Assembly: GCA_032622095.1 (NCBI GenBank)
Contig: CP136063.1
Coordinates: forward strand, 28,522,987 to 28,586,986
Source: Siphonodentalium dalli
Taxonomy: Eukaryota > Mollusca > Scaphopoda > Gadilida > Siphonodentaliidae
Direction of reading: 5' to 3'
Length of the DNA: 64,000 nucleotides
The notes below the pieces were generated by a model. The model was not told the DNA's origin. It saw nothing but the letters and a program-made list of their open reading frames with translations, and searched no databases. Position numbers and translations under genes: made by a program. This document shows positions 4,142-60,728 of the stretch, piece after piece (the stretch's first letter is position 1; every line of letters begins with the position of its first letter).

Positions 4142-4604
4142 AGATGGATTATCTCTTTAAATAGCAAATTTTAAATAGTTGCGTTGGTATAAAATAATCA
4201 ATATGAAATGAAGACCCCTGTCCGGAAAAGCTTCTAACAATTAATATTGATTTTATTTCGAATATTTAATCGGGACCGTGTATGTGTCTAATTTTAGAAC
4301 AGACCATTCGGATGATACCATATTGCGATATAGAGCATTGGGCTGTTCCTGTAGCTACGCACCGAAAGTCAAATGTCTCAGACTGATTGTTTGTATTGTT
4401 ATGTTCCATAGTTATAAGCGATAATAAGTATAACTAACGTTTATTTGTGACAAAATTGTACAATAAAATTTCTGGTCTCTGTTAACAGTATCACTATTGT
4501 CCGTTAGCTAAACAACTACACCTTTTTAGACTAGAAAATATTCGAAATACAATTAATATTAATCGACAGAAGCAAATACATGTTTACAAAGAGAAAATCC
4601 ACCT
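4142..4604 (-). mobile_element. TTAA-type MITE, copy A (old)
   Basis: This is a diverged reverse-orientation copy of the roughly 520-bp MITE described at 20934. It begins AGATGGATTATCTCTTT and ends with the complement of AGGTGG followed by TTAA (4605-4608). The left target site has decayed to TTCA. One terminal arm is shortened. The divergence marks it as one of the older copies. Confidence 0.8.
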
Positions 4605-4608
4605 TTAA

Positions 4609-5341
4609 AATAACCACCAAATTATTGTATAACACTCAGGGACCATCGTTCTGGCAGATACAAATAAGATCTAACAGAAACGCAGGCATCGCGAGTCGAA
4701 AAAAAAAACGATAACGACGCTGGAAATGAATGAGGGACAAATACGTCATATCAAAATGGCGGCGCTTCCGGTCGAGATTGGCAAGTCACTTATTTGGTCA
4801 AATGTTTGTACATGTATATGTTGCACGAACATGGTCACTAGTTATATTTGTGCTGTGCAATATCTTGGTATGAGGAGACTGTTTCAAAACCCTTGAAAAA
4901 ATAGTTTTTTTGGCATGAGGGGCTGTTTTCAAAAGAATTATGTCTTTGCTAGCCATGACAGAATCATTTGGTAAATCCCAATAAGCCTACTCCTTGAATT
5001 ATTTTATTTTTTGAGTTGCGAATATATTTGGAATGTTTCCTGATTGTTGGGAAAATGACCCCCTGCTTCTGTTACGGTGATTGTTTCTCTATTTTGGCAC
5101 CAGAACCTCCCTAGGTACATCGATGTTACAGTGGTTGTTCCTCTGTTTGGCGGCAGAACCTCTCTAGGTACATCGGGGCCACTGGGGTTATCATCCCATG
5201 AGCTTTGACCAAACTCTATGTGCGGTACCTTACAATCATAAAGTTCACACATGTAGTGCAGTGCTAATTTACGAAGAAGATTCATTCTGCCCTCCTTTTC
5301 TGCTGTCATCGGAATCTTGGGGGAGGAAGGCGGCACATTGA
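4609..5341. other. intergenic, no supported gene
   Basis: No convincing gene. Around 5085-5180 a short imperfect direct repeat is visible (GTTACxGTG...CAGAACCTCxCTAGGTACATCG twice). The minus-strand frame across it at 5004-5336 has no recognisable domain and is probably not real. Confidence 0.4.
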
Positions 5342-5572
5342 AACAAACTTCAGCCCAAAATTTACTCGACGGGGAAGTCGTGTGAGATTGCCAACGAAGG
5401 TTATCCTAAATGGATTGATACAGAGAAGAAGAAGGTACGGGCGGATCAAGTGTCATTCGACCAAGGACGAGAGAAATCTCGTATCCTGATGAATAAACGT
5501 GCGCATAAATATGTGGTTGTGCATAGAAGCACCATCCACAAAACGATAGATGAATACGCAGTCTTTTCGTGA
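5342..5572 (+). CDS. unrecognised coding-like fragment (76 codons)
   Basis: This is an open frame on the + strand, bounded by stops on both sides. The encoded peptide has a protein-like composition: K/E/D-rich, with EIANEGYPKWIDTEKKKV, VSFDQGREKSRIL and KYVVVHRSTIHKTIDEY segments. There is no ATG until about two thirds of the way along, so it would have to be an internal exon or a remnant. The last segment resembles the start of a second frame at 27126 (IVVLFSRTVHKTIDVYTQ), which suggests a dispersed family. I cannot name the family. It may be a decayed mobile-element or virus-like protein piece or a host exon. Confidence 0.35.
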   Translation, partial: NKLQPKIYSTGKSCEIANEGYPKWIDTEKKKVRADQVSFDQGREKSRILMNKRAHKYVVVHRSTIHKTIDEYAVFS

Positions 5573-13335: not shown

Positions 13336-14397
13336 TTAGATTAATTTATCTATTTTTACAGCGACCGATTCATCACCATTGTCGAGTATTTCCGAAAGCC
13401 TTGAAATTTCTGTCTCAAGTTTATTTTCAGATTCATTTCTTCCCTTTTTCAAATTTGAAGAGTATGCAATAGTTTGGCCACGAATCATAATTTTTAGGGT
13501 TTCCCAAAATAGTTGATCATTGATTTTAAAAATGTTTTCATCCCCAATGCGTATATTTTCAATGTTATTATTCACATATTGGTCTACTACCTCAGCAATT
13601 ATAGTTTTAACTAATTCTATATACTTTTTGTCTCTCAATAAACTGTTGTTAAATTTCCATGTCCCTCTGCCCCTGGGATGACTCACAAATTGTATAGTTA
13701 AGCTCACTGGAGAATGGTCTGATTTATAACTAGTATGTATATCAGATGTTTTTATAAAAGACTGAAGATCAGCGGAGACCAAGAAGTAGTCGAGCCTAGC
13801 CATTTTACTTCCTGGGCCCCTCCAACTATATCGTTTAATGCCTGGGTTATGAAGCCTCCATGTATCGTGTAAACCTAACCTCATTTGCCAGAACTTCATT
13901 TTTTCATTTGATTTTGTGTTGTTTTTCTGTTTATAATGGATTGTATCCATTGAATAGTCCTGAGGTACATTCCAGTCTCCTGCAATTATCATAGAAGAGT
14001 TTTCCAATTTGTCAATTTTGTTAAAACGTTTTTCAAAAAACATTGGGCTGTCCTCGTTCAGCCCATATACAGCACATAGGCTAAGTCTCTGATGTTGGAT
14101 TGTAATATCAAGAATGATGTAATTTCCACTGTCATCAGCCACTATTTCGTGTATTTCATATTGGATTGAATTTTTTAAAATAATGGCTACCCCTCTTTTA
14201 GCACTGGAAAATGAGGAAAACATGGCTTCATAACCCCATTCCATCCTCCATCTTTTTTCTGTTTCTTTACTTGAATGCGTATCAATTAACAAAGAAATAT
14301 CATACCTAGCTCTACATCTATTGAATAAATCTCTACGCTTTACATGGTCAGACGACAACCCACGACAGTTCATGGCTCCAATTGATATATTAGCCAT
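13336..14397 (-). pseudogene. LINE ORF2 endonuclease domain (L1-like)
   Basis: About 353 residues from the ATG at 14397, which gives MANISIGAMNCRGLSS. Endonuclease/exonuclease/phosphatase landmarks are visible: the N-terminal NCRG with LLIDTHSS, RGVAIILKN, the catalytic-loop AGDWNVPQD, RLDYFLVS, and the C-terminal SDHSPV with the terminal His. In LINEs this domain nicks target DNA to prime reverse transcription. An in-frame TAA at 13336-13338 ends the frame. The same frame continues past it into RDKKIQGIILRTKAKWKVEG, so this is a nonsense change within one ORF2 and not the natural end. The endonuclease itself looks complete. Confidence 0.85.
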
Positions 14398-14403
14398 TTT
14401 CAA

Positions 14404-16363: not shown

Positions 16364-17188
16364 TTATTTATTCATGAAATAGTTTTTTTGTGTTACTAGC
16401 TTCAAGGGTTCTTGTTTCATATAAACTAGTTTTGTCTGCTTCTTCTCTTTCTCTGGTAGTGCAGCTCTTGCTCTTAAAAGTTCGCCTCAGAATTTAGAAA
16501 CAGATGGAGGTAAATCTATGGACACACCTGCCGATGATCCTGATGGCAGTTTTTTGGCGCTATTCAAGACTAGGTCTCTGTCTGGCAGAGATATGAATCT
16601 TATCATAATATCAGGGCAAGAATGACTACCTGATGGTAACCGATGGCAAACACCGAGGAACATGTCTCTTAATTGTTCTTCCTGAATATGGAGTTCAGAC
16701 GAGAAGAAGTCCAAAGCTTTCCCTGACGTAATTCTGGGAGTTTCATTCCTCGATCCTTTAATCCCTCTCAACACCAGATTCCATTTTCGTCCCCATAAGT
16801 CTAGTTTCGTATGGGCTATTTCCAGATTGTTGAGTTTCTCCGAAAAGGAATTTACTTTATCTTCTAATGCACTTATTGACTCAGAGCCGCATTCTTTGAT
16901 TTTTTCCTTCAAGTCTTCGTGTATAAAATCTATGCTGACCTTAAGTTCATCAAGTGTTTCTTCATGTTTAGAAACTTTCTCTTCTACAACGTTAGTATTC
17001 TTAGATGTTTTTTCCACATCTTCTACTTTTTTTTGAAGTTCCACGACTGTTTTCTCCACACAATCCAGCCGGCCGCCTACAGATTGGTGTAGCTGCGTTC
17101 TATATCTGTTACATTGAGCCCGACTCGTTCTAAAATTATGTTTCAGAACACATCCGAACACATCGGACATGTTCCAGAAAGAACACAT
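16364..17188 (-). pseudogene. LINE ORF1-like protein (coiled coil plus RRM), one nonsense codon
   Basis: The N-terminal half is a long coiled coil (VEKTVVELQKKVEDVEKT through ALEDKVNSFSEKLNNLE). It is followed by an L1 ORF1p-like RNA-binding domain: RKWNLVLRGIKGSRNE, LGVCHRLPSGSH, DIMIRFISLPDRDLVLNSAKKL. An in-frame TGA at 16487-16489 interrupts it. The same frame then continues with LLRARAALPEKEKKQTKLVY to a TAA at 16364-16366, as expected for the ORF1p C-terminus. It is therefore a single-codon break in an otherwise full-length ORF1. The first 30 residues overlap the AGAACAC array, so the true start may lie further in. In L1 elements this protein coats the RNA. Its link to the ORF2 at 10.4-14.4 kb is inferred from strand and order. 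Confidence 0.75.
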
Positions 17189-17715: not shown

Positions 17716-19494
17716 TTATTTCTCACATATATCGCATTGATACGGAGGCTCGCCAGAATGGACTCTCTTATGTGCCATTAGGTTACTCTTCTCGCCGAAT
17801 GAATTATCACATATATCGCACTGATACGGACGCTCTCCGGAATGGACTTTTTTATGTCTCATTAGGTCACTCGTCTGAGTGAATGATTTCTCACATATAT
17901 CGCATTGATACAGACAATCTCCAGGATGGACTCTCTTATGATCCGTTAAGATACTCGTCTCGGCGATTGATTTCTCACATATATCGGAATGATACGGATG
18001 CTCGCCAAAATGGACTCTATTGTGGCTCATTAGGCTACTCGTCTGGGTGAATGATTTCTCACATATATCGCACTGATACGGACGCTCGCCAGAATGGACT
18101 CTCTTATGCGCCATTAATTTATTCTTCTCGCCGAATGATTTCTCACATATATCGCACTGATATGGACGATCTCCAGAATGGACTCTCTTATGCGCCATTA
18201 GGTTACTTGTCTGGGTGAATGATTTCTCATATATATCGCACTGATACGGACGCTCGCCAGAATGGACTCTCTTATGAGCCATTAATTTATTCTTCTCGCC
18301 GAATGATTTCTCACATATATCACACTGATACGAACGATCTCCAGAATGGACTCTCTTATGTGCCATTAGGTTACTCGTCTGGGTGAATGATTTCTCACAC
18401 ATATCGCAATGATACGGACGCTCGCCAGAATGGACTCTCTTATGCGCCATTAATTTATTCTTCTCGCTGAATGATTTCTCACATATATCACACTGATACG
18501 GACGATCTCCAGAATGGACTCTCTTATGTGCCATTAGGTTACTCGTCTGGGTGAATGATTTCTCACACATATCGCAATGATACGGACGCTCGCCAGAATG
18601 GACTCTCTTATGTTTCATTAGGGTACTCTTCCCGCCGAATGATTTCTCACATATATCGCACTGATACGGACGATCTCCAGAATGGACTCTCTTATGCGCC
18701 ATTAGGTTACTCGTCTGGGTGAATGATTTCTCACATATATCGCACTGATACGGACGCTCGCCAGAATGGACTCTCTTATGCGCCATTAGGAAACTCTTCT
18801 GGGTGAATGATTTCTCACATATATCGCACCGATACGGACGATCTCCGGAATGGACTCTCTTGTGAATCATAAGGTTACTCGTCTGGGCAAATGATTTCTC
18901 ACATATATCGCAATGATAAGGACGATCTCCAGAATGGACTTTCTTATGATCCGTTAAGGTACCCGTATCGGTGAATGATTTCTCACATATATCGCACTGA
19001 TAAGGACGATCTCCGGAATGGACTCTCTTGTGTCTCATTAGGCTACACGTCTGGGTGAATGATTTCTCACATATATCGCACTGATACGGACGCTCGCCAG
19101 AATGGATTCTCTTATGCGCCATTAATTTATTCTTCTCGCCGAATGATTTCTCACATATATCGCACCGATACGGACGATCTCCAGAATGGACTCTCTTATG
19201 CGCCATTAGGTTACTCGTCTGGGTGAATGATTTCTCACATATATCGCACTGATACGGACGCTCGCCAGAATGTATTCTCTTATGCACCATTAGGTTACTT
19301 GTCTGGGTGAATGATTTCTCACATATATCGCACTGATAAGGGCGATCTCCGGAATGGACTCTCTTGTGTCTCATTAGGTTACTCCTCTCGGTGAATGATT
19401 TCTCACATACATCGCACTGATATGGACGCTCGCCAGACTGGACTCTCTTATGATCCATTAGGGTATTTGTCTGAGTTAATGGTTTCTCACCCAC
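17716..19494 (-). CDS. poly-C2H2 zinc-finger protein, main array
   Basis: A single frame encodes about 20 tandem C2H2 fingers of the form YQCDICEKSF-x8-HKRVH with HSGE/HSGD linkers, 28 residues (84 bp) per finger. No KRAB, BTB or other effector domain is visible in this exon. A stop lies just upstream, and the first codon of the open frame is GTG, so the start codon must be in an upstream exon or lost. Fingers 9-16 alternate two types (TQTSNLMA and xEKNKLMA) with alternating linkers, which shows amplification of a two-finger unit. Two fingers have lost a zinc ligand (CDIY for CDIC; YHSD for YHCD). The frame ends at a TAA that replaces the Ser of CEKSF. Sequence-specific DNA binding is expected from the family. 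The targets are unknown. Confidence 0.8.
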   Translation of the reverse strand: MGEKPLTQTNTLMDHKRVQSGERPYQCDVCEKSFTERSNLMRHKRVHSGDRPYQCDICEKSFTQTSNLMVHKRIHSGERPYQCDICEKSFTQTSNLMAHKRVHSGDRPYRCDICEKSFGEKNKLMAHKRIHSGERPYQCDICEKSFTQTCSLMRHKRVHSGDRPYQCDICEKSFTDTGTLTDHKKVHSGDRPYHCDICEKSFAQTSNLMIHKRVHSGDRPYRCDICEKSFTQKSFLMAHKRVHSGERPYQCDICEKSFTQTSNLMAHKRVHSGDRPYQCDICEKSFGGKSTLMKHKRVHSGERPYHCDMCEKSFTQTSNLMAHKRVHSGDRPYQCDICEKSFSEKNKLMAHKRVHSGERPYHCDMCEKSFTQTSNLMAHKRVHSGDRSYQCDICEKSFGEKNKLMAHKRVHSGERPYQCDIYEKSFTQTSNLMAHKRVHSGDRPYQCDICEKSFGEKNKLMAHKRVHSGERPYQCDICEKSFTQTSSLMSHNRVHFGEHPYHSDICEKSIAETSILTDHKRVHPGDCLYQCDICEKSFTQTSDLMRHKKVHSGERPYQCDICDNSFGEKSNLMAHKRVHSGEPPYQCDICEK

Positions 19495-25566: not shown

Positions 25567-26880
<1,314 letters not shown>

Positions 26881-33197: not shown

Positions 33198-34827
33198 CTA
33201 AGCGTCAATGATTTCCTTTATCGGACGGGTGCCTACAAGAGCGAGAGCCATATCAGTGCGAGTTTGAATGTGTAGGCCCTGCATGTTTTTCACACACATA
33301 CGATGAACTTTCTCTAAGTTTGTACAGTTCACTTCTGTCTGATTATGAAGCAGTTCCGATCCATATAAACCACGGGGAAGAACGACGCTGTTATAAATTT
33401 TCATCGCACTAGCGGGAGTAATACCGCCTGCATAAAGACCGGCGTTGGACGTCATGAAAAATGTTGAGCGTATTTTGCTTACTGTCATATCAGTGAATAC
33501 GTTATTGAACTTATATTTAGTTAGTGGTATACCAAGGTGTGTTACTTGATCTACCTCTGCAATAGCACTAGTCCAGTCTGTGATAATGAAAAAGGGCCAT
33601 ATCGTCAGCATGTGTGAGACAATGACAGTTTATGTTTTTCATGAACAAACCAAACTGAGATCTTTCTAACTCATAAAGTAAATTATCAATGTAAATGGTG
33701 TATAGGAATGGGGAAACAGAGCCCCCTTGTCTGGCGCCGTGCGTGACCTCAAACCAACGTGAGGAAATTCCAGAAAAAGACGTTCTCCACCATATGCCTG
33801 TCAGAAGGCAGTTGAGTATTTTTAATGTATTTCCTCTGACCTGGCGCTCATAAAGTTTGAATAGTAATCCATTAATCCAAACGGTATCAAATGCTTTCCA
33901 CACGTCCAAGAAGCACGCATATAATTTGCTATGCTTCTCGGACGTGTAATAAATGCATTCCTGTACCATGAAGGACGACATCATACAGCTAATATTCTGT
34001 TGAAAACCATTTTGTAACGGATGTACTGTTAGGGTTGAAGGAGAGTTATTTTGTAATCGAAGAAGGATAACTCTTTCAAACATTTTGTAAATTACTGGTA
34101 ATAGAGTTATCGTTCTGCAACTGTCAAAATTGTCACGAGGCTTAAGTGTTCCTTTATATAATGAGCCAATGACACCCAATTTTGCATTTTGTGGAACATA
34201 CACAAGTTCAATCATCTTTGAAAATAAAAATGCAATGCACTGTAAAATCGAATCACCACCGTATATAAAGTGTTCATAATTTATGTTGTCCCATCCTGCA
34301 GCTTTTTTATGCGGCAGAGATTTGAGAAGGGAGCTAACTTCAGACGAGGTTACTGGATATATTACTCGTTCATCTATTGGGCTGAATGAATGTTTAGAAA
34401 GTTCTTTGGTTATAACTACATTGATTTTCTTAAAGTGCTTTTGATCAAACTCAGGGCTCACCAGTGGGTTAGAAAAGATTGTTTCGTAATATGATGCCCA
34501 TCCCTCGACTATTTCAGCCGGGGCTCTCAGAATATTACCATTGTGTTTAAAAACTGAATTTGAAAGAACATCGTTAGATTTTCGTTTAGTATTGAACAAT
34601 TTGAAAAACGCACTTTGGTCTGCCTCAGCACACCTATCAATGTCTGCGTTAATTGAATCTAAATGTTGTTTTGAGTATTTCCGATATTCTCTGCGAAAGG
34701 TGCGCTTAGCCTCTTTATAACATGATAATTCTATGCTAACCTCTCCTCTGGGGCGACCTGCCTTCAACCAAAGAGAACGATAGTATGTTAGTGTATTTCG
34801 TAAGCTATTTAGGTGTGAGTTCCAAAA
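33198..34827 (-). pseudogene. LINE ORF2 reverse transcriptase, second clade
   Basis: RT motifs in order: PHKKAAGWDNINYEHF, SRTI-like CRTITLLPVIYKMFE, LQNGFQQ, the catalytic FLDVWKAFDTVW, HGARQGGSVSPFLYTIYIDNLL and CLTHADDMALF. The usual YADD is HADD here, an uncommon substitution next to the catalytic Asp pair. A frameshift just after the catalytic box (near 33590) moves the thumb region (DQVTHLGIPL, LPRGLYGSELL) to another frame, which ends at 33198. It is inactive. Confidence 0.85.
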
Positions 34828-35817
34828 TTATTTAAGGAAGGGTTTGAATGATGTCTGAGCCGAGTTGCATATCGCGCTTATGAGATCATTGTAATAATTG
34901 TCTAGTAAGTGTGTGTTCTTAACCTGAGGTAGTAATTTTTCTAAGTCACTTTGATAAGTTTGAATATTTTCTTGCATTGAGGAAAATTGTTTCCATTTTA
35001 ATCGTGATCTATCGGTGTTAGTGTTGAGTTCAGGTTCAATGCTTAGTTCAATGTTGAGTATTGTTGTGATAGGTCGATGATTCGATACATTTAATACATC
35101 ATCATAGAGAACATCAAAGCAATTTATGTTGTATTTATCCATTTTGGGAACAAAAATGTGGTCAATTACGGAGCCACTTAATCCCGAGGGAGATACAAAT
35201 GTTGGCAATTGAGTTGAATCTTGAGCAAATATATATGGTGAGACTAGCTCAAGTTCGTCAACGAGAAACTTTAGTACTTTACAGCGTTTGTCGCCTTTAT
35301 AGAGGGTAGCATTGAAGTCGCCCATGAGTATAATTTTACCTAATGCCCGATAGCTGCCACACAGCGTTGATAATTTTTCGATATATTCCTTGTAAAAGTC
35401 AAGTGTGTAATTGGTCGAAGGTAGATAAACGTGAAAAATGTAAATGTAACTAGTTTTCGAAATTTGGACCTGAATTCCTATAATTCTATCATCATTTATA
35501 TCAATGGTCGATATCCGACCTCCGAGGGTCCTCCTGTTCCAGCAGAGGAAAACACCCCCTTTGTTTCTCCCTCTCTGCAATGGCAGACGCTGGGAGAAGT
35601 CACACACAGTGTGAAATATGTAGTTCTTGTTGATAGAATTTAGAAAGTGCCCATTTTTTTTAGCTAGCCAATGTTCGCTAATACCGCAAATATCAATGTT
35701 CTGGTTTTCGATAAGATTACCTAAGTACGCTGCGCTGGACATAATGCCCGTCGCATTCCATACAAGAATTTTGATCATAATGATAAAGTGTGTACATAAC
35801 ATTTCAAAATATTTCAC
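34828..35817 (-). pseudogene. LINE ORF2 endonuclease domain, second clade
   Basis: Apurinic-type endonuclease landmarks in one frame: KILVWNATGIM, GISEHWL, RGRNKGGVFLCWN, YLPSTNY, LMGDFNATLY, SVIDHIFVP and NHRPITTI. The natural start is probably the internal Met before KILVWN. The frame ends at an in-frame TAA (34828-34830) after FKPFLK. The same frame then continues as FWNSHLNSLRNTLTYYRSLW into the RT. The change is a single nonsense codon between two domains of one protein. Confidence 0.85.
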
Positions 35818-39224: not shown

Positions 39225-41085
39225 GCCTTCCCGTGGATATATTTTCGATTGGAAAAAGGGTATATGTCGGGGAAATATAGCTCTATAATATCCCATAATT
39301 AGAATAATATGCTGTGACTTAATATTTAAAGATATAACGGTTTCAAAGTGAAACGTTCTGACAGCCGCGCGAGCCTTGTGTATAAGAAGTATTAAATAGT
39401 TTGCTGATGACTGAGAATATCCCAACCGCACCCACACCCAGGTCTGGTAAATTGAAAATGAATCAAAGTTCCCGTGGATATATTTTCGATTGGAAAACGG
39501 GTATCTGTCGGGGAAAAATAGCTCTACAACATCCAATAAATAGAATCATATGCTGTGACTTAATATTTAAAGATATAACGGTTTCAAAGTGAAACGTTCT
39601 GACAGCCGCGCGAGCCTTGTGTATAAGAAGTATTAAATAGTTTGCTGATGACTGAGAAATATCCCAACCGCACCCACACCCAGGTCTGGTAAATTGAAAA
39701 TGAATCAAAGTTCCCGTGGATATATTTTCGATTGGAAAACTGGTGTCTGTCGGGGAAAAATAGCTCTACAATATCCAATAAATAGAATCATATGCTGTGA
39801 CTTAATATTTGAAGATATAACGGTTTCAAAGTGAAACGTTCTGACAGCGGCGCGAGCCTTGTGTATAAGAAGTATTAAATAGTTTGCTGATGACTGAGAA
39901 TATCCCAACCGCACCCACACTCAGGTCTGGTAAATTGAAAATGAATCAAAGTTCCCGTGGATATAATTTCGATTGGAAAACGGGTATCTGTCGGGGGAAA
40001 ATAGCTCTACAATATCCAATAAATAGAATCATATGCTGTGACTTAATATTTAAAGATATAACGGTTTCAAAGTGAAACGTTCTGACAGCCGCGCGAGCCT
40101 TGTGTATAAGAAATATTAAATAGTTTGCTGATGACTGAGAATATCCCAACCGCACCCACACCCAGGTCTGATAAATTGAAAATAAATCAAAGTTCCCGTG
40201 GATATATTTTCGATTGGAAAACGGGTATCTGTCGGGGAAAAATAGCTCTACAATATCCAATAAATAGAATTATATGCTGTGACTTAATATTTCAAGATAT
40301 AACGGTTTCAAAGTGAAACGTTCTGACAGCCGCGCGAGCCTTGTGTATAAGAAGTATTAAATAGTTTGCTGATGACTGAGAATATCCCAACCGCACCCAC
40401 ACCCAGGTCTGGTAAATTGAAAATGAATCAAAGTTCCTGTGGATATATTTTCCATTGGAAAACGGGTATCTGTCGGGGGAAAATAGCTCTACAACATCCA
40501 ATAAATAGAATCATATGCTGTGACTTAATATTTCAAGATATAACGGTTTCAAAGTGAAACGTTCTGACAGCCGCGGAGCCTTGTGTATATAAAAAGTATT
40601 AAATAGTTTGCTGATGACTGAAAATATCCAAACCGCACCCACACCCAGGTCTGGTAAATTGAAAATGAATCAAAGTTCTCGTGGATATATTTTCGATTGG
40701 AAAACGGGTATCTGTCGGGGAAAAATAGCTCTACAATATCCAATAAATAGAATCATATGCTGTGACTTAATATTTCAGGATATAACGGTTTCGAAGGGAA
40801 CCTTCTGACAGCCGCGCGAGCCTTGTGTATATAAGAAGTATTAAATAGTTTGCTGACGACTGAGAATATCCAAACCGCACACACACCCAGGTCTGGTAAA
40901 TTGGAAATGAATCAAAGTTCCCGTGGATATATTTTCGATTGGAAAACGGGTATCTGTCGGGGGGGGGGGGGGAAATAGCTCTACAATATCCAATAAATAG
41001 TATCATATGCTGTGACTTAATATTTCAAGATATAACGGTTTGAAAGTGAACGTTCTGACAGCCGCGCGAGCCTTGTGTATAAGAA
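39225..41085. repeat. satellite, about 241-bp unit, nearly 8 copies
   Basis: GTTCCCGTGGATATATTTTC recurs near 39469, 39711, 39952, 40193, 40434, 40676 and 40918, with a diverged start at 39226. Units are over 90% alike. Because 241 is not a multiple of 3, frames rotate, and long open stretches recur on both strands. They are repeat artefacts. In one unit (40959-40972) the usual G4 run has grown to 14 G. The left edge differs in sequence and the right edge passes directly into a different repeat. Confidence 0.9.
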
Positions 41086-41090
41086 GTATT

Positions 41091-46492: not shown

Positions 46493-47550
46493 CACCGGTT
46501 CAGCGTCACAAACTCGAGAGTAATCTCGTCGTATAACTCTCCCCCGATCTATGTCTATTTTGGTGGACAGGGGATGACACCATCTATATTAAGTTGCAGT
46601 CTATTTAGAAACCGACGTTGTGTGTTATTATGGATTAACCCTTATACAGAACAAACACTTACTTGACTAAGGCACAAGCCCAGTAAACGATGGTTTACCA
46701 GGCTTTACTCTGTGCCAGTTAAGGTAAAGGTATATATAAATATAGAATATCTGGGAGTTTGGACAAGGAAACACAAAGGAATCGTGAATTAAATGAATGG
46801 TAATATAAAATGCTACTTGAAGACAGAGATATCGAGAATGAATACTGGTTAGCAGCCTAAAATTCATATTTATTATTTTATACCCACGCAACTATTTCAA
46901 ATCTGTTATTTAAAGAGATAATCCAAATTCAAATGTGTATTATCTCTTTGTAAACGTATTATATAGTTACCAGGGTATAAAATATTAGAATTGTGGAATA
47001 AAACATTACAACCAATCAATCTGGGGCATTGGACGTGGATTATCTCTTTGTAAACATGTTTTATGTAGTTACCGGGGTATAACATATTAGACCTGAATCG
47101 AAGACTCCTGTCCAGAAATGCTTTTATCGATTAATAATAATTTTATTTCGATTATGTTCTAGTCTAAAAAGGTGTAGTTGTTTAGCCAAGAAACAAGAGA
47201 CCATAAGTTTAATTGTACAATTTTGTCACAAATAAACGTTAATGGGACATTTGACTTTCGGTGCTTAGCCATAGGAAGAGCCCAGTGCTCTATATCACAA
47301 TATGGTATCATCCGAATGGTATTTTCTAAAAATGGACGGTCCCAATTAAATATTCGAAATAAAATCAATATTAATTGACAGAAGCCTTTCCGGACAGGGG
47401 TCTTCAGTTCATATTTATTATTTTATACCCACGCAACTATTTAAAATTTGTTATTTAAAGAAATAATCCATCCTTAATTCATAGAAGCCTTTCCTGACAA
47501 GGGTTTTCAGTTCATATTTATTATCATATTGATGGATATATTTCGAATTG
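46493..47550 (+). repeat. segmental copy of 20.76-22.4 kb, MITE-free
   Basis: Collinear with 20760-22400 but lacking MITE E and the terminal-arm expansion. It starts with the dispersed repeat (copy 3, 46493-46634) and a single TTAA at 46635-46638. It continues through the CAGTAAACGATGGTTTACC block and the old MITE subfamily member (about 47035-47475). Confidence 0.85.
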
Positions 47551-49725: not shown

Positions 49726-50084
49726 CTGTTAACCAGAAGAGACCAGAAATTTTATTGTACAATTTTGTCACAAATAAACGTTAGTAATACTTATTTTCGC
49801 TTATATATGTGGAACACAACAATACAAACAAACAATCTGGGACATTTGACTTCGAAACAGCCCAGTGCTCTATATCGCAATATGGTATCATCATAATGGT
49901 CTGTTCTAAAATTGACACATAAACGGTTCAGATTTAATATTCGAAATAAAATCAATATTAATTGATAGAAGCTTTTTCGGACAGGTGTCTTCTGATCCTA
50001 TATATTATTTTATACCCACGCAACTATTTAAAATTTGTTATTTAAAGAAATAATCCATCTTTCATTGATAGAAGCCTTTCCTGA

Positions 50085-50839: not shown

Positions 50840-53800
50840 CTAAACGGGTTCCTGTTTCACATCGATATCCAGAGCATTGTCCCAAACAACGACTGGCGAA
50901 CAAACCTGGTTTACACGACAACAGTTTATACCTGGATCATTACAACGGGTGTTGCTAACTGTAGTTAGAATTGTATCAGATTTCCCTTTGTATTTTAACA
51001 TGCAACGAGTGTCATGTGTATCATTACCGACTTCAATTCGGTTAACTGTCGCATCACTATTCTGGTTTGTCTGCGGTTTATACTGTACACCAGATTCCTC
51101 ACTTTCATTCTCAATTTTTATCTTCGTTCCACAATAGGTCGAACCCGAATTGAGATTACCACCACCAGAAAAGTTTTGTGTATCGGCCCACTCACGTGAT
51201 TCGTACCCATTAAGGTGTTCCTCGGGTGCATCGTCGGTGACGTCATGAATGTCAGCTAATAAACGACCATCGAGGGACACAGTTTCCGGCTTCATATCAA
51301 CATCATCACACTGACCTGTGTCTGTGGTAAATACGACAACAGAGTCACGTGGTATAACTGTGTCGGTGACGTCATGAATGTCAGCTAATAAACCACCATC
51401 GAGGTACACAGTTTCCGGCTTCATATCAACATCATCACACTGAGCTGTGTCTGTGGTAAATACTACATCAGAGTCACGTGGTATAACTGTGTCGTTGTAT
51501 GTTGTGAATTCTTCAGCAGCATCCTGTGGTATAAGCATTCCCGTCTGTTTAGTTTCGAATATTCCTGTCTCGGGCTGAGAAACATCAAGTGAATGCACAT
51601 TGGCATTAGGGGAGAACAGCAAGTTCAACATTGTGTGAGTTGAATTAAGACGTGATGCCAGGTTTAAATGTGTTGTGCCCACACCACGCTCAGGTCCAAA
51701 GAAAAACTCAAGGTATTTCCACGCGGGTTGGGGTGTATTCTGAAAGTCATTGATAAACTTTCTTTCTAAACTCCTCGTGTAGCGAGCGACTGGAAACATG
51801 TGTATGTGATGCTTAAGGTGTAGACCCCACTCACTGATATTGACTGATCCGTGTCCACATATGCCACAGAAGATTAGTCCAGAGCCAGTCTCCACGTTAA
51901 CACCAAACATCGGGCGAATCAGATCGGTTAAACGGCAGACATCGAGACGGGGACGCATGCGCGGGGGCAGCATAGTCTCTCTGGTTAGACTTCCTGGTAA
52001 TTCGACAGGATATTTGGCATCAAGAGCAAAAAATATCGTTCTGCGTTTTCGGCGAATTGATAATAACCTTTCAAGTTTGTGTCCAGGCAATACAGAATCT
52101 AGCTTCATGTTGGTGAAGAAAAACGAGAGTGTGTGTGCAGGTGTCTGCTTTCTTGTGGAATACATATCACAAAATATATGATTTTTGAGTTTAGCTGACA
52201 TTTTTGCAGATCCAGATGGCCAGTTCCCATGAGAAAGACTGTGGTCAATGCTTAGACAATGCATATTATTTGTTATGGTGCAGAGAAAATAACTTGGTCC
52301 GCTGATATCGAATATTACACAGTGATTGAGAGTGGAGCGGGCATGACTGTTATCAAACACGTGCTTTAACATTGTAGTGGGCACCTCTCCGTGAACTAAA
52401 TCCATGCCAGATATGGGGATAAATGTCTCACATTGATCACAGAATAGAACCTGAATGTCACCTGAGAACCAGTCAGAACAGTGGTCGCTATCCTTCGTTT
52501 GCCAAAAATGGAGAATAAGGTCTATCATGGAGGATTGAACCTTGCCGCATAATGCGCATTTCACATCAATGTAAGACACTGTATGCATCATCTTACAAAG
52601 TCTAAACATCACTTCTCCAAGTTGATTAATCCTTGAAAAGAGATCGCCATTCATATCAAAGGGTCGGATTGCGGATTTGCGGATCGACTCCAGTTGTCCC
52701 CCTATATTGCCAGTTTTAATTGATGCTTCTGGCATTGCGACCGCAGTATTCACGGTTTCAGGCTGTATCGACTTCAGTTTTCCCACTTGATTGGCAGATT
52801 GAGTTGATGCTAGTGGCATGGCGATCACACTATTAATGGTTTGAGGGTGTATCGACTTCAGTTTTCCCACTTGATTGGTAGATTGAGTTGATGCTAGTGG
52901 CATAGCGACCACACTATTAACAGTTTGAGGGTGTATCGACTTCAGTTTTCCCACTTGATTGGCAGATTGAGTTGATGCTAGTGGCATAGCGACCGTATTA
53001 ATAGTTTTAGGCGGCATAAACTTCGGCGGATCTATAATATTAACGGTTTGAGACTGCATCAACTTCATTCGGGAGTGGGTATAAGCAGACTCACGTGGTT
53101 GGCACTTCCTTTCACTATCCAAGTCTGTGTTTGTAACCGGTCCGTATTCATCATCACCAGCACTCTGCGATATAGTTACTTGTGGAAAATTAACATCGAA
53201 AACAAATCGACTGGATTGTGGGGAAAATATGAGATTGAGAATAGTTTGCACCGCAATTAAACCAGTCGTAAAGTGGGTCGGTTCTTGTAGTTTTCTAAAG
53301 ATGCTGCCGTCGATGAAACAACGACGAAGTATGGCCCATGCGGGAATCGTATCGAATTTAAGTTCCTTTACAAGTTCAGTTTCTTTCCATATGGAAGTTT
53401 GAACGAGTGGAAACAGATGTATATGTCCCTTCAAATGTAAGCCCCATTTACTAACGCTCTGGAATCCGTTCTTGCAAATTCCACAAAACAAACGAGCCGA
53501 CCCAGTCAAAATGTTTAGCCCGACAATTGGAAGAAATAACATATCGATCGTGCTTGAAAATTGAAGGCATTGAATGACCTTGTCCGATAACACGGTATCG
53601 GAAGAAAGACTTTCAGATATTTCGACTATCCTATCTGTAGAATTGGCTGCAAACATCAAAGTCTTGCATTCTCGGTTCAAAGACTTCTTGAAATAATCCT
53701 GAATATTTTGGACGAATGTTGTGCTAATTTTCATGCATTTACACAAAGAGGATAGTCTGTCTTTCAATGGAAGAGAACAGTTACAGTTATATATATCTTC

Positions 53801-56218
53801 AAAGATGTGAATTCTTAGTACATGGTTCCATTCTACCCGCGTAGCACTCACCCAATTTCCGACCGATATACTCGCATTCACAGATAAACAGTTGTTCGGG
53901 CTCATCGTATGCAAAAGAATGTATGTGGGGCCGTTGATACCGAAAGAGACACAGCCATTCGACACACCACCAGCATGGTCGCGAACAATATGGTTCACAA
54001 TATGTTCTGAGAACTGTTTCTCATAGATATTAGCGTTCCATGTCGGATAGAAATATTCGCATTTGCCGCAGTAAAACAGGCCTATTTCGTTCGTACTATT
54101 CAGCCATTCCGCACAATGGCTCCTGCTGTTTTCCCACATATGACCAAGAAGAGAGGTAGCCGAGGTCGTTTCATGTTTACACACACCACAGTGTAAAGAT
54201 AGGACAGACTCTTCTTGTGTGTGATTGTACGTGTATAAAGTAACAACAAGCTGTCCTAATGCGCGCATTTTAAGTGTCAATTCGTCGTCCATCTCCACGG
54301 ATGACTGTAGAGTGAGAATGGTGTTCCACTGTTTAGTACCCTCACTGCTGTTCGTAATTGGGCACGCTATGATATTCTGACAATCACGTTTGTGATCGCC
54401 GCAAACAGTCACGGGAACCATGCCATGTTCCGTTTGCCCAGCCTTGTCGGCACTCACCAAGGATGATCTAGCAATGCATGAAGACACGTGCAAACTGATA
54501 CATCGGTCGTTCATTGGTTCTGTGGTGTTCATGCTGTTACACAATGTATCGGTTCGTTTAGTTAAAACAGGAACAGCATCATTGGTGAGTGTAGACAAAG
54601 GAACGTAAATAACATGTTCAGTTGCTCCTGTTGCGAATAGTGCATTCAAAACATGTCTTGCGGTAGCCAAACCTACAACATAGTTAGCTGCACAAGATGT
54701 GTAAGCGCGAGTTTCGAAGAATCTCTCTAATTGCTTCCAAATTGGGAGTGGTGAAGAAATCGCCATGGATAAAAAACGGTTTCCGGAAGTTGTAAGACGA
54801 CCTGCTGGAAACATATGGATATGTTCCCCCAGATGGAGTCCCCACTTACTGATATTGGTGAATCCCAAGCGACAAATGCCACAATACACACGAATCGAGC
54901 CTGTTAAAGAATCTACTCCAATCACCGGATGAGTAAGTCTTTTCATCCGGCTTACTAGTTTTGTCCGGACAAGCGTACACGGTAACTGGCCTCTTAAGAT
55001 AGTGTAAGGTTGATTCGTAAACACAAAGTCATTGTCACATGTGGACACAATTATGTAGCGCGATCCTTGTTCGGTAAACCGTTTAACTATGACATCGACA
55101 GAGAGCCCTAGAGTCGAACTTAGTTTCAAACAGGTCGTTGAAAATATAAGTCGATGAACAGCAAAATTATTCCCGTCATGTTTATCTTTTAAAAGTCCAC
55201 ACATCGGACATGACAGACACGAGAAAACGTCGGCGAATATATGTTTCTTGGCATGTACATCTGATGTATTGTATGACAATGCAGGCCAGTTACCCAGGGA
55301 CATGCTTGTGTCGATAATCAGATGATCAGGAGATCTGGATATCTGCAGTAATGTGTAAACAGGACCATCAGCATCGAAACATATGCATGAGTCTGGAGTA
55401 TTTCCGTCTAGTACGTGCATTGCGAGATGTTTCACAATACTAGATGAAAACTTCGACGTTAAGAGATTAGTGTCGCTTGTCGGAAGATATACATAGCATT
55501 GACTGCAGTAAAACAATTGAATCGGGCCACTCTCCCATCCCAAGCAATGCGTGAACCTTTGAATCCACATATGGTCAATAAGACGGTTCACATTCTTCCA
55601 ACAGTGATGACAAATCCCACAATGGAATACTCCGCCGCGGATAGATTCCACTCTACGTATTAGTTTCGCCAGGTTGGAGATTCTAGCTGGATCACGGGCG
55701 CCTGATTTCACCGTACAACTATTAGTGGCAGATTTTAATGCATCCTTCTGTATATTCGGTTCCCCAGAGGCAGTTAGTTCACATGCTAGATCAGGGTTGT
55801 GTGTAAATGGTTCATCAGATGAAGTCAGTTCACATGCTAGATCCCGGTTCTGTGTAAATGTTTCCCCAGAGGCAGTTAGTTCACGTGCTAGATCCGGGTT
55901 GTGTGTAAATGGTTCCCCAGAGACAGTCAGCTCACATGCTAGATCCGGGTTGTGTGTGAATGGTTCACCAGAGACAGTCAGTTCACATGCTAGATCCGGG
56001 TTGTGTGTGAATGGTTCACCAGAGACAGTCAGTTCACATGCTAGATCCGAGGTGTGTGTAAATGTAGCGCTGTACTCTTCTCTAACGACTCCGATATTTT
56101 CCACGATACCACATGTGCTTCCTTGTTCAGTGTACGATCCTGATGTCTCACATGAATCGTCCGATATCCTTCTCGTCTTGGGTGGGCGTGAATCGATACC
56201 ATGTTCATTCATTTGCAT
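50840..56218 (-). CDS. three-module zinc-ligand protein, novel family
   Basis: An uninterrupted frame of 1792 codons. The open frame reaches a little further, but an in-frame TGA lies just upstream, and the first ATG is at 56218 (MQMNEHGIDSRPPKTRR). Numbering from there: residues 53-154, six 17-residue repeats (FTHNPDLACELTVSGEP); 183-541, 651-1012 and 1197-1550, three modules; 1073-1179, repeats of about 30 residues (VAMPLASTQSANQVGKLKSI); 1576-1661, a 43-residue duplication (DTVIPRDSxVVFTTDT). Each module has C-x2-C-x12-H-x7/8-H, then C-x2-C-x22-H-x3-5-H, a GPxY...LS.GNW block, HIFxD, a TGS segment, and CGIC-x12-HLxxHIHxFP (C2H2 spacing). IKIE (about 1700) and VKQE at the C-terminus fit sumoylation sites. 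There is no signal peptide or membrane segment. A nuclear nucleic-acid-binding role is plausible but inferred. I do not recognise the family. Confidence 0.85.
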   Translation of the reverse strand: MQMNEHGIDSRPPKTRRISDDSCETSGSYTEQGSTCGIVENIGVVREEYSATFTHTSDLACELTVSGEPFTHNPDLACELTVSGEPFTHNPDLACELTVSGEPFTHNPDLARELTASGETFTQNRDLACELTSSDEPFTHNPDLACELTASGEPNIQKDALKSATNSCTVKSGARDPARISNLAKLIRRVESIRGGVFHCGICHHCWKNVNRLIDHMWIQRFTHCLGWESGPIQLFYCSQCYVYLPTSDTNLLTSKFSSSIVKHLAMHVLDGNTPDSCICFDADGPVYTLLQISRSPDHLIIDTSMSLGNWPALSYNTSDVHAKKHIFADVFSCLSCPMCGLLKDKHDGNNFAVHRLIFSTTCLKLSSTLGLSVDVIVKRFTEQGSRYIIVSTCDNDFVFTNQPYTILRGQLPCTLVRTKLVSRMKRLTHPVIGVDSLTGSIRVYCGICRLGFTNISKWGLHLGEHIHMFPAGRLTTSGNRFLSMAISSPLPIWKQLERFFETRAYTSCAANYVVGLATARHVLNALFATGATEHVIYVPLSTLTNDAVPVLTKRTDTLCNSMNTTEPMNDRCISLHVSSCIARSSLVSADKAGQTEHGMVPVTVCGDHKRDCQNIIACPITNSSEGTKQWNTILTLQSSVEMDDELTLKMRALGQLVVTLYTYNHTQEESVLSLHCGVCKHETTSATSLLGHMWENSRSHCAEWLNSTNEIGLFYCGKCEYFYPTWNANIYEKQFSEHIVNHIVRDHAGGVSNGCVSFGINGPTYILLHTMSPNNCLSVNASISVGNWVSATRVEWNHVLRIHIFEDIYNCNCSLPLKDRLSSLCKCMKISTTFVQNIQDYFKKSLNRECKTLMFAANSTDRIVEISESLSSDTVLSDKVIQCLQFSSTIDMLFLPIVGLNILTGSARLFCGICKNGFQSVSKWGLHLKGHIHLFPLVQTSIWKETELVKELKFDTIPAWAILRRCFIDGSIFRKLQEPTHFTTGLIAVQTILNLIFSPQSSRFVFDVNFPQVTISQSAGDDEYGPVTNTDLDSERKCQPRESAYTHSRMKLMQSQTVNIIDPPKFMPPKTINTVAMPLASTQSANQVGKLKSIHPQTVNSVVAMPLASTQSTNQVGKLKSIHPQTINSVIAMPLASTQSANQVGKLKSIQPETVNTAVAMPEASIKTGNIGGQLESIRKSAIRPFDMNGDLFSRINQLGEVMFRLCKMMHTVSYIDVKCALCGKVQSSMIDLILHFWQTKDSDHCSDWFSGDIQVLFCDQCETFIPISGMDLVHGEVPTTMLKHVFDNSHARSTLNHCVIFDISGPSYFLCTITNNMHCLSIDHSLSHGNWPSGSAKMSAKLKNHIFCDMYSTRKQTPAHTLSFFFTNMKLDSVLPGHKLERLLSIRRKRRTIFFALDAKYPVELPGSLTRETMLPPRMRPRLDVCRLTDLIRPMFGVNVETGSGLIFCGICGHGSVNISEWGLHLKHHIHMFPVARYTRSLERKFINDFQNTPQPAWKYLEFFFGPERGVGTTHLNLASRLNSTHTMLNLLFSPNANVHSLDVSQPETGIFETKQTGMLIPQDAAEEFTTYNDTVIPRDSDVVFTTDTAQCDDVDMKPETVYLDGGLLADIHDVTDTVIPRDSVVVFTTDTGQCDDVDMKPETVSLDGRLLADIHDVTDDAPEEHLNGYESREWADTQNFSGGGNLNSGSTYCGTKIKIENESEESGVQYKPQTNQNSDATVNRIEVGNDTHDTRCMLKYKGKSDTILTTVSNTRCNDPGINCCRVNQVCSPVVVWDNALDIDVKQEPV

Positions 56219-56427
56219 GATGAAAGCGAGCAATGTTCGTCAGTGTGTCGATGGAATTATCAATCACCGTGTATATACGTAATTCAATTAACCTGTCTTG
56301 TTCAGCGGATGATCCCCCGTGGGCAATGTAGACTTTCTCTCTCGCCAAGGCCGCTTCCCTGTAAATACATAGTGAACATTTATGACGTAAAGCAAACCGC
56401 TTCGGTGAATTACACCAGCGAATAATT

Positions 56428-56541
56428 TAAAATGGTATATCTCTTTGTAAGCATGTGTTACATGTATATAGTTACGGCCCTTACGGGGTATAAACAATTA
56501 GATATGAATCGAAGACCTCTGTCCGGAAAAGCTTCTATCCA
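56428..56541 (+). mobile_element. MITE left-arm fragment upstream of the large gene
   Basis: Carries the family's left arm (ATCTCTTTGTAAGCATG to GTCCGGAAAAGCTTCTATCC) with a small insertion. It is interrupted by copy J at its internal TTAA. Confidence 0.7.
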
Positions 56542-56545
56542 TTAA

Positions 56546-57058
56546 AGATGGATTATCTCTTTAAATAACAAATTTTAAATAGTTGCGTCGGTATAAAATA
56601 ATAGATATGAACTGAAGACCCCTGTCCGGAAAAGCTTCTATCAATTAATATTGATTTTATTTCGAATATTAAATCAGGACCGTTTATGTTACTATTTTTA
56701 GAACAGACCATTCGAATGATACCATATTGCGATAGATCACTGGGCTGTTCCTATGGCTACGCACCGAAAGTCAAATGTCCCAGATTGATTGTTTGTATTG
56801 TTCCACAGATATAAGCGATAATGAGTATAATTAAGGTTTGTTTGTGACAAAATTGTACAATAAAAGTTCTGGTCTCTGTTAACAGTAACCACTATTGTTC
56901 GTTAGCTGAACAAACACACCTATTTAGACCAGAAAATATTCGAAATAAAATGAATATTAATCGATAGAAGCATTTCCGGACAGGAGTCTTCGATTCAAAT
57001 GTAATATTGTATACCCCGGTAACTATATAATACATGTCTACAAAGAGATAATCCACCT
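56546..57058 (-). mobile_element. TTAA-type MITE, copy J, nested in an older copy
   Basis: A reverse-orientation, 513-bp copy flanked by TTAA (56542-56545 and 57059-57062). The flanks on both sides are parts of another family member: left arm before it, and internal sequence with GATTTTAGTTCGAATATG after it. Confidence 0.85.
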
Positions 57059-57791
57059 TTAATATTGATTTTAGTTCGAATATGTTCTGGCCTAATAACA
57101 TGTGATTGTTTGGCTAACGAACAATAGTGATTACTGTTAACAGATACCAGAAATGTTATTGTGTAACTTTGTCACAAATAGACGTTAATTAAGGACTTTG
57201 ATAACCCAATTTCCCCCAAATTTGATGGAGTCAAAATAAAGGTTTACGTTCATTAGTTTATTAGTAATCAGAGTAATCAATCCCATGAATGAAACGTATA
57301 TTGAAAAAGTATAATTCGTGTTGGAATATGTTAGAAATACTAAATGTTTAGAGGTATTTTTTTCGAACCCAAAATCAATAAACACAAAGTAGCATATCAA
57401 AGAGAAAAATATGTCAATGTGTACTGAACACTGTGAAGAATGGTGAACAATAAAATAATATTCATATATATCAAGTATTCTTGGATATAATTACTAAGAA
57501 CCACGTGTTTAGACACAATTGAGTAATTTACCTGACATCGCATGTAGTGAGATGACAGTTAATATCTGTGGACAGTGTTGAGTTGTGAATCGCTAGACAA
57601 AAGAACTGTGTAATCCCCAATCTGGGGGTACCCCATAGCCCAGAAACTAGATCACCAATCAGCTGAATCAGGATGTTTTTCTCATGGGTCAGCACTTGCT
57701 GGTCATAATTCCAACTGGCTTGAGTGAGTATATCTTAGAGTATAAGCATGATATCAATTGTAGTGAGGTGACAATTAACTGTTAATATACC

Positions 57792-59900: not shown

Positions 59901-60015
59901 TCTATGGGTTTGGTTACTCTGATTACTAATAAAAGTGAACATAAACCTTTATTTTTTTACATTAAATTTGGGGGAAATTGGGTTAGCAAAGTCATTAATC
60001 TCAGTATCGCTTTAA

Positions 60016-60728
60016 AGGTGGATTATCTCTTTGTAAACATGTACTATATAGTTACTGGGGTATAAAATATTAGATCTGAATCGAAGACCGTTGTCCGGAA
60101 ATGCTTCTATCCATTATTATTAATTTTATTTCGAATATTTTCTGGTCTAAAATTAAAAAGGTGTGTTTGTTTAGCTAGCGAACAATAGTGGTTACTGTTG
60201 ACAGAGACCAGAAATTTTATTGTGTAATTTTGTCACAAATAAACGTTAATTTAATAATTATACTCATCATCGCTTATAAGCCATACAGCCAATCATTCTG
60301 GGACATTTGACGTTCGGTGCGTAGCCATATGAACAGCCTAATGTTCTCTGTCGATACACTGATACATGATATCACCCGAATGGTCTGTTTTAAAAAATAG
60401 ACAAATAAACTGACCATCGAACTATGAAGACGTACATTACTGAGAGACAAAAGGACTTGCCGGCCGGCACAAGATGCGGATCCAACATATGAAACTCTAT
60501 GTAAGTAGATCTGGGATAAATGCGGGAAAGTGTTGTAGTAACGACACTACACTGTTCTAAAAAATAGACAAATAAACGGGCCTAATAAAATATTACTGGT
60601 ATTCGAAATAAAATCAATATTAATTGATAGAAGCTTTTCCGGACAGGGGTCTTCAGTCCATATATATTATTTTATACCCACGCAACTATTTAAAATTTAT
60701 TATTTAAACTTAAAGAGATAATCCATCT
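60016..60728 (+). mobile_element. TTAA-type MITE, copy K, with an internal insert
   Basis: TTAA at 60012-60015; the right site has decayed to TTGA. The 713-bp length comes from about 150 extra bases near 60418-60570. These are bordered by a repeated AATAGACAAATAAAC, which suggests a later insertion or duplication. Confidence 0.8.

Follow-up and report, generated by a model that had tools for sequence, protein, structure and literature searches.

The window, the whole 64,000-nucleotide stretch of Siphonodentalium dalli DNA analysed here, carries a member of a real, selected and unnamed gene family whose proteins are made of C2H2-derived zinc fingers. Tentatively, and with a confidence just short of an even chance, we read this as a birth-and-death family of intracellular, probably nuclear, SUMO-regulated zinc-finger proteins, whose largely fixed fingers would serve a repressor-type regulator or a scaffold.

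The coding frame lies on the minus strand (Table 1). It runs uninterrupted through 1792 codons from an ATG at 56218 to a stop at 50840, or spans 50840-56233 if counted from a TTG. On the plus strand, frame 1 is packed with stops across 50840-56218. A preliminary description of this DNA had reported the 1792-codon frame without naming its strand and had taken its length as an argument for function. The frame itself was confirmed. Under simulated neutral drift of 0.05-0.6 substitutions per site, the frame gains about 6 to 54 stops (6.5 at 0.05 substitutions per site; 37 to 54 at 0.3 to 0.6). At the divergence between the window copy and its close relative L012, neutral simulation leaves the frame free of stops in 14.5% of runs, so this pair alone is little proof of constraint.

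The encoded protein contains three homologous modules (pairwise BLASTP E-values of 2e-47, 4e-50 and 4e-52; 29-33% identity). Their conserved core measures 319-336 residues, and successive modules start about 477 and 544 residues apart. The three copies had been recognized in the preliminary description, which set their length at about 355 residues; this figure is replaced by that of the core. The order of motifs given there stands (C-x2-C-x12-H-x7/8-H, C-x2-C-x22-H-x3-5-H, HIFxD, TGS, CGIC-x12-HLxxHIHxFP), with the exception of LSxGNW, which reads [MIL]SxGNW. Tandem repeats with units of 51, 84 and 129 bp, all multiples of three, are located around and between the modules. The criterion used detected one basic cluster in the window protein (RRKRR, within module 3), and no clear nuclear localization signal was found in it.

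Table 1 Features of the coding frame on the minus strand of the window.
Feature	Positions	Strand	Remarks
Coding frame, 1792 aa	50840..56218	-	Start Met region common to C3 and most C6 copies; C-terminus common to C3, C6 and C1 copies
N-terminal linker, about six 17-residue (51 bp) tandem repeats	55758..56064	-	Repeat number differs from L012
Module 1, conserved core	54644..55651	-	HMM domain hit
Module 1, predicted zinc site 1, C-x2-C-x12-H-x7-H, C2H2-like	55547..55621	-	C, C and first H in 26/26 modules
Module 1, predicted zinc site 2, C-x2-C-x22-H-x3-H, long-insert finger	55415..55507	-	C, C and first H in 26/26 modules
Module 1, fourth, optional site, C-x2-C-x6-H-x7-H	55154..55210	-	Not in window modules 2 and 3
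Module 1, predicted zinc site 3, C-x2-C-x12-H-x3-H, classical C2H2 spacing, W for Leu	54821..54883	-	Four ligands in 26/26 modules
Module 2, conserved core	53264..54220	-	HMM domain hit
Linker between modules 2 and 3, 28-residue (84 bp) tandem repeats	52683..52994	-	
Module 3, conserved core	51626..52588	-	HMM domain hit
C-terminal tail, two 43-residue (129 bp) repeats, MKPE motif in each	51233..51494	-	
C-terminal motif VVVWDNALDIDVKQEPV, WDNA plus psi-K-x-E-P, SUMO-type	50843..50893	-	

Family members, clusters and spread

We searched the genome (2,226,750,531 bases in nine contigs, with the window on contig C3) using five family queries, which converged on at least 25 family loci on five chromosomes. 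These comprise at least one locus each on C1 and C2, eight on C3, nine on C6 and six on C9. Seven of the eight C3 loci lie within 28.26-28.67 Mb, and the clusters on C6 and C9 occupy 14.85-18.16 Mb and 188.33-188.45 Mb. Frames of more than 1100 codons are present at 18 of the 25 loci. The other seven loci are shorter or broken, which makes "decayed surroundings", the wording of the preliminary description, a fair one. Most loci sit in clusters that also contain broken copies; the family has evolved by tandem birth and death.

A long frame is not equivalent to an intact copy. The frame of L009 (1345 codons) is interrupted in module 3, the tail of L018 stops early, the N-terminal part of L019 lies in a different frame, and in L027 and L036 stops occur in or after the tails. 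At L033 (1067-9436), an uninterrupted family frame of 2790 codons encodes two modules, followed by about 900 residues of tail. At L014, a decayed family copy is accompanied by a frame (4510-5514) whose first part contains a helix-hairpin-helix stretch (PF12836 at E 0.004, below the cut-off).

Three modules are found in the C1 gene and in the long copies on C3, and two in the C6, C9 and C2 genes. A maximum-likelihood tree was built from 26 modules; its long branches C2 and C9i are placed unsurely. Each module of the C1 gene groups in this tree with the module of the same number in the C3 gene (support 100/99, 100/100 and 100/99 for modules 1, 2 and 3, respectively). Because of this module-by-module grouping, the tripling is considered older than the split between the C1 and C3 genes. 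It also seems that module 3 was lost from the C6 genes.

Several other elements were noted in the window and elsewhere in the genome. A dispersed repeat of about 530 bp occupies 56541-57062, and pieces related to it lie at about 47035-47477, 49738-50062 and 60012-60410; its first piece recurs beside family copies on C1, C3, C6 and C9 at 83-93%. Further elements are a satellite-like array at 39228-41090 (unit of 241 bp, 7.7 copies, 95% matches) and LINE-type reverse transcriptase and endonuclease frames at 33568-34767, 34828-35817 and 13336-14403 (minus). With a CpG observed/expected ratio of 0.93, the whole window shows little sign of methylation-driven CpG loss. On C1, the order of the guanidino kinase exons at 58840403-58889373 hints at a two-domain gene; among solved structures, taurocyamine and arginine kinases come closest to them. 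The best single-domain arginine kinase scored 83.5 and 74.7 bits, above the 70.6 and 65 bits of the Limulus enzyme, to which these exons are not close.

Purifying selection on the modules

We estimated dN/dS by the Nei-Gojobori method with our own script in nine pairs of paralogues; the pair L026/L028 was dropped due to saturated synonymous sites. The values range from 0.33 to 0.55 for the modules versus 0.37 to 0.81 for linkers plus tails. For the modules, the interval excludes 1 in eight of the nine pairs, with L020/L021, which are too similar, as the exception, and for linkers plus tails it includes 1 in four of the nine. The preliminary description had seen selection behind the ligand pattern, and the module values, below 1 with confidence in eight pairs, agree with this view.

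Conservation of the predicted zinc sites

For the comparison of sites, we aligned 26 modules from 12 genes picked for diversity, omitting near-identical and broken copies. Positions are numbered according to module 1, whose site coordinates were confirmed by translation. Fourteen of the 336 columns are invariant: C11, C14, H27, C49, C52, H75, P242, C257, C260, W270, G271, H273, H277 and W305. Ten of these 14 are residues predicted to bind zinc (p 1.5e-14 in a hypergeometric test, a guide value since the rows are related). The observation that ligands are kept while most other residues diverge, originally made on the three modules of the window, extends for these ten ligands to all 26. Loss of the ligands in orthologues of related species had been named as evidence that would speak against the proposed domain; in intact paralogues of this genome the ligands are kept. 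Broken copies can lose them, as in L022 (CGVY for CGVC) and L011 (where L replaces the first His in site 2).

The three sites differ in how strictly their spacing is maintained. At site 1, x12 is found in 22 of the 26 modules, and the gap that comes next measures 6-12 residues; in 20 modules the second His falls on the aligned column. The last His of site 2 occupies the aligned column in 23 modules, and x22 is found in 19. Site 3 begins with C-x2-C in 21 modules and C-x4-C in five, continues with x12 in 25 (x14 in one) and ends with H-x3-H in all 26; a Trp stands in the usual place of Leu. Thus, the C2H2 pattern C-x2-4-C-x12-H-x3-5-H describes site 3 in 25 of 26 modules, and site 1 only up to its first His (22/26). 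Thirteen modules have a complete fourth site, C-x2-C-x6-H-x7/8-H; ten have gaps at its C, C and H columns, and in three it is altered. This nearly all-or-none distribution is the pattern expected of a real metal site. From these patterns we infer that the modules bind zinc.

Sites 2 and 3 are separated by 160-192 residues, and no noteworthy match was obtained for this core. Two AlphaFold runs gave models of low confidence (pLDDT 36 and 51), which weakly predict a bba order at site 1, at site 3 and, with a long loop, at site 2. A Foldseek search with the second of these low-confidence models returned no match below E 2.

Relation to known zinc fingers

No Pfam family passed its cut-off in the window protein or in five other members scanned whole. 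The only Pfam match of the window protein was zf-C2H2_2 (PF12756), with 18.3 bits against a cut-off of 26.9. When 19 modules were scanned singly, 22 families reached E 1, several of them unrelated, and C2H2 kinds were common to most modules. Among these weak matches were zf-C2H2_4 in seven of the 19 modules, zf-C2H2_jaz in six (best E 1.5e-4, below the cut-off) and zf-C2H2_2 in two. The same 19 modules gave nothing below E 0.026 in NCBIfam and nothing below E 0.0098 in PHROGs. When the PDB was searched with a profile of the 19 modules, site 1 matched the C2H2 fingers of ZBTB20 (E 0.003); the best E-values were 0.91 for the window protein alone and 0.45 for a profile of its three modules. No published description of the family appeared in those portions of the literature that were available to our search.

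A strong match to a known family, which would have argued against the preliminary description, was sought in Pfam, NCBIfam, PHROGs and the PDB profile search and not found, and its statement that the domain matches no named family holds at the Pfam cut-offs. Its placement of the motifs outside the known kinds of fingers was not supported: site 3 has classical C2H2 spacing, and site 1 is C2H2-like. The match to ZBTB20 and the C2H2 spacings led us to reject a class of zinc-ligand proteins unrelated to C2H2.

The module is most plausibly a composite in which C2H2-derived fingers surround an unmatched core. In about 330 residues, it would comprise a C2H2-like finger, a long-insert finger, the core and a C2H2 finger of classical spacing, giving three predicted sites, or four in some modules. 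It resembles C2H2 fingers (Pfam zf-C2H2, PF00096, and kin; ZBTB20) in the spacing of site 3 and in the first half of site 1, and it may share their bba order, which the low-confidence models weakly predict. It differs from them in the displaced second His of site 1, the long insert of site 2, the W instead of L in the core of site 3 and scores below all Pfam cut-offs. Whereas the fingers of C2H2 arrays are linked, those of this family stand singly, 13-15 and 160-192 residues apart. A likeness to the paired zf-C2H2_2 fingers is visible below the threshold in module 2 of the window (E 0.0027) and in the C2 member (E 0.011), but the bit score of the window protein and the small number of matching modules set the family apart from them.

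SUMO-type motifs in the C-terminal tail

The sequence psi-K-x-E is the general consensus of SUMO acceptor sites. We counted such motifs in the tails of ten of the 18 long-frame members, with 300 shuffles each and tail borders set by hand. [VILMF]KxE occurs 34 times in the ten tails versus 3.6 expected, and twice in their modules versus 4.4 expected; the motifs are not independent, as the sequences are related and some motifs lie in tandem repeats. The excess has p < 0.01 in nine of the ten tails; L028 gave p 0.11, and L034 gave p 0.13 for the strict [VI] form.

Among 17 frames compared, seven carry WDNA and then psi-K-x-E at their end or close to it (the window copy, L012, L015, L020, L021, L024 and L026), and these are distributed over C1, C3, C6 and C9. 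Five more frames possess variants of WDNA, namely WEN[AV] in L016, L017 and L019 and [IN]DNA together with IKIE in L028 and L034. L027 has WDHA and FDNA, with the acceptor missing. The WDNA form is lacking in L018, L033, L035 and L036; L035 ends in IKIKEEPPDD. In the tail of L026, the WDNA-psi-K-x-E unit is present four times at a spacing of 33 residues, with E or D as the acid, and this tail matches in sequence only its C9 neighbours. The psi-K-x-E motifs of the tails are likely SUMO acceptors. SUMO-modified at these motifs, the tail may serve as a transcription- or chromatin-regulating tether of the repressor type.

Putative base-reading positions of site 3

In an ordinary C2H2 finger, the helix positions -1, 2, 3 and 6 read the bases. 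Across the 26 modules, S occupies position -1 of the site 3 helix in 24 and position 2 in 19, L occupies position 6 in 24, and position 3 shows nine types of residues. An ordinary C2H2 array of 18 fingers in the same window (17716-19494) varies at all four positions, a rough yardstick in that the fingers of one array are set against paralogous modules. The near constancy of positions -1 and 6, and for the most part of position 2, favours largely fixed modules. As these reading positions are mostly fixed, the modules would bind a constant partner, either protein or nucleic acid, rather than evolve new DNA words.

The variation at position 3 and the presence of S at position 2 in only 19 modules add weight to another explanation, according to which the proteins are sequence-specific DNA-binding repressors in an arms race with transposons, like the vertebrate KRAB or insect ZAD proteins. 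We consider this unlikely. The clusters that mix intact and broken copies, the moderately high dN/dS and the SUMO-type tails fit it; the likeness to KRAB and ZAD zinc-finger clusters in clustering, birth and death, and SUMO-type motifs is an evolutionary one. Frames of ordinary C2H2 arrays also exist in the same window and beside two family copies. However, the fingers of a module are far apart and do not form a linked array, site 3 hardly varies at two reading positions, and the window protein and five other members lack KRAB, ZAD or any other known repressor domain.

The ordinary array frames of the window, at 17716-19494 and 25610-26410 (minus), have 592 and 266 codons and finger repeats of 84 bp. 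A coiled-coil-like frame (16487-17188) adjoins the first of them.

Alternative origins and functions

Descent of the genes from a mobile element or a virus by domestication would explain why the modules of all long members are intron-free. Uninterrupted module frames at 18 of the 25 loci, in a genome whose guanidino kinase genes are split over many kilobases, point in this direction, although a retrocopy of a cellular gene would equally be intron-free. We regard such descent as improbable. The homology between the window and L012, about 91 kb apart, spans 45000, where the query for the flanks started, to about 60400 at 97-99% identity, in pieces (L029, L012 and L030) with a break at 49.0-49.7 kb. 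Since it extends through the flanks, we read the window/L012 copy as the product of a segmental duplication; no mobile-element ends were seen around the duplicate in the BLAST blocks. None of six members has a transposase or polymerase domain, and no phage family matched below E 0.0098. As candidates for the gene itself, a mobile element was rejected because the flanks were co-duplicated, and a viral origin because one scan of viral contigs gave no relative.

Little probability is also given to intracellular immune or self/non-self factors that diversify through repeat number and tandem duplication. The number of linker repeats does differ between the window copy and the 98% identical L012, the family undergoes birth and death, and its linkers and tails evolve faster. 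Yet the modules, presumably the recognition part, evolve more slowly than the tails, and no known immune domain was found in the six members scanned.

That the gene is dying or has recently died, its frame having stayed open by chance, is very improbable: several broken copies lie in the same cluster and the similarity to L012 makes a stop-free frame under neutrality conceivable, but the module dN/dS for window versus L012 is 0.35 (0.16-0.79), module 3 differs by three synonymous and no amino-acid changes, and long frames have been retained at large distances on C1, C2, C6 and C9. Module 1 differs in this pair by one synonymous and three amino-acid changes. A pseudogene was rejected on the module dN/dS, the drift simulation and the substitution pattern between window and L012.

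Implications

We return to the reading with which we began, a birth-and-death family of SUMO-regulated proteins with largely fixed fingers, and infer that its members would bind zinc, reside in the nucleus, undergo SUMO modification and act in repression. Rather unlikely in its full extent is a bolder version, in which an undescribed domain (three or four C2H2-derived sites and a new core of 160-192 residues) together with a WDNA-psi-K-x-E SUMO-docking tail would define a fast-duplicating nuclear family whose coding frames are uninterrupted, a lineage-specific system of genome defence or chromatin regulation built on largely fixed modules and not on DNA-reading arrays.

A family of large proteins with at least 25 loci in one animal genome is named by none of the profile libraries used, and catalogues of genes filtered by known domains could miss it. 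Its modules seem to uncouple the structure of the zinc finger from the reading of DNA words, and the tail motif provides a direct, testable handle through SUMO. If the proteins form a repressor or defence system, they would represent a parallel to the KRAB zinc-finger clusters, made from other parts.
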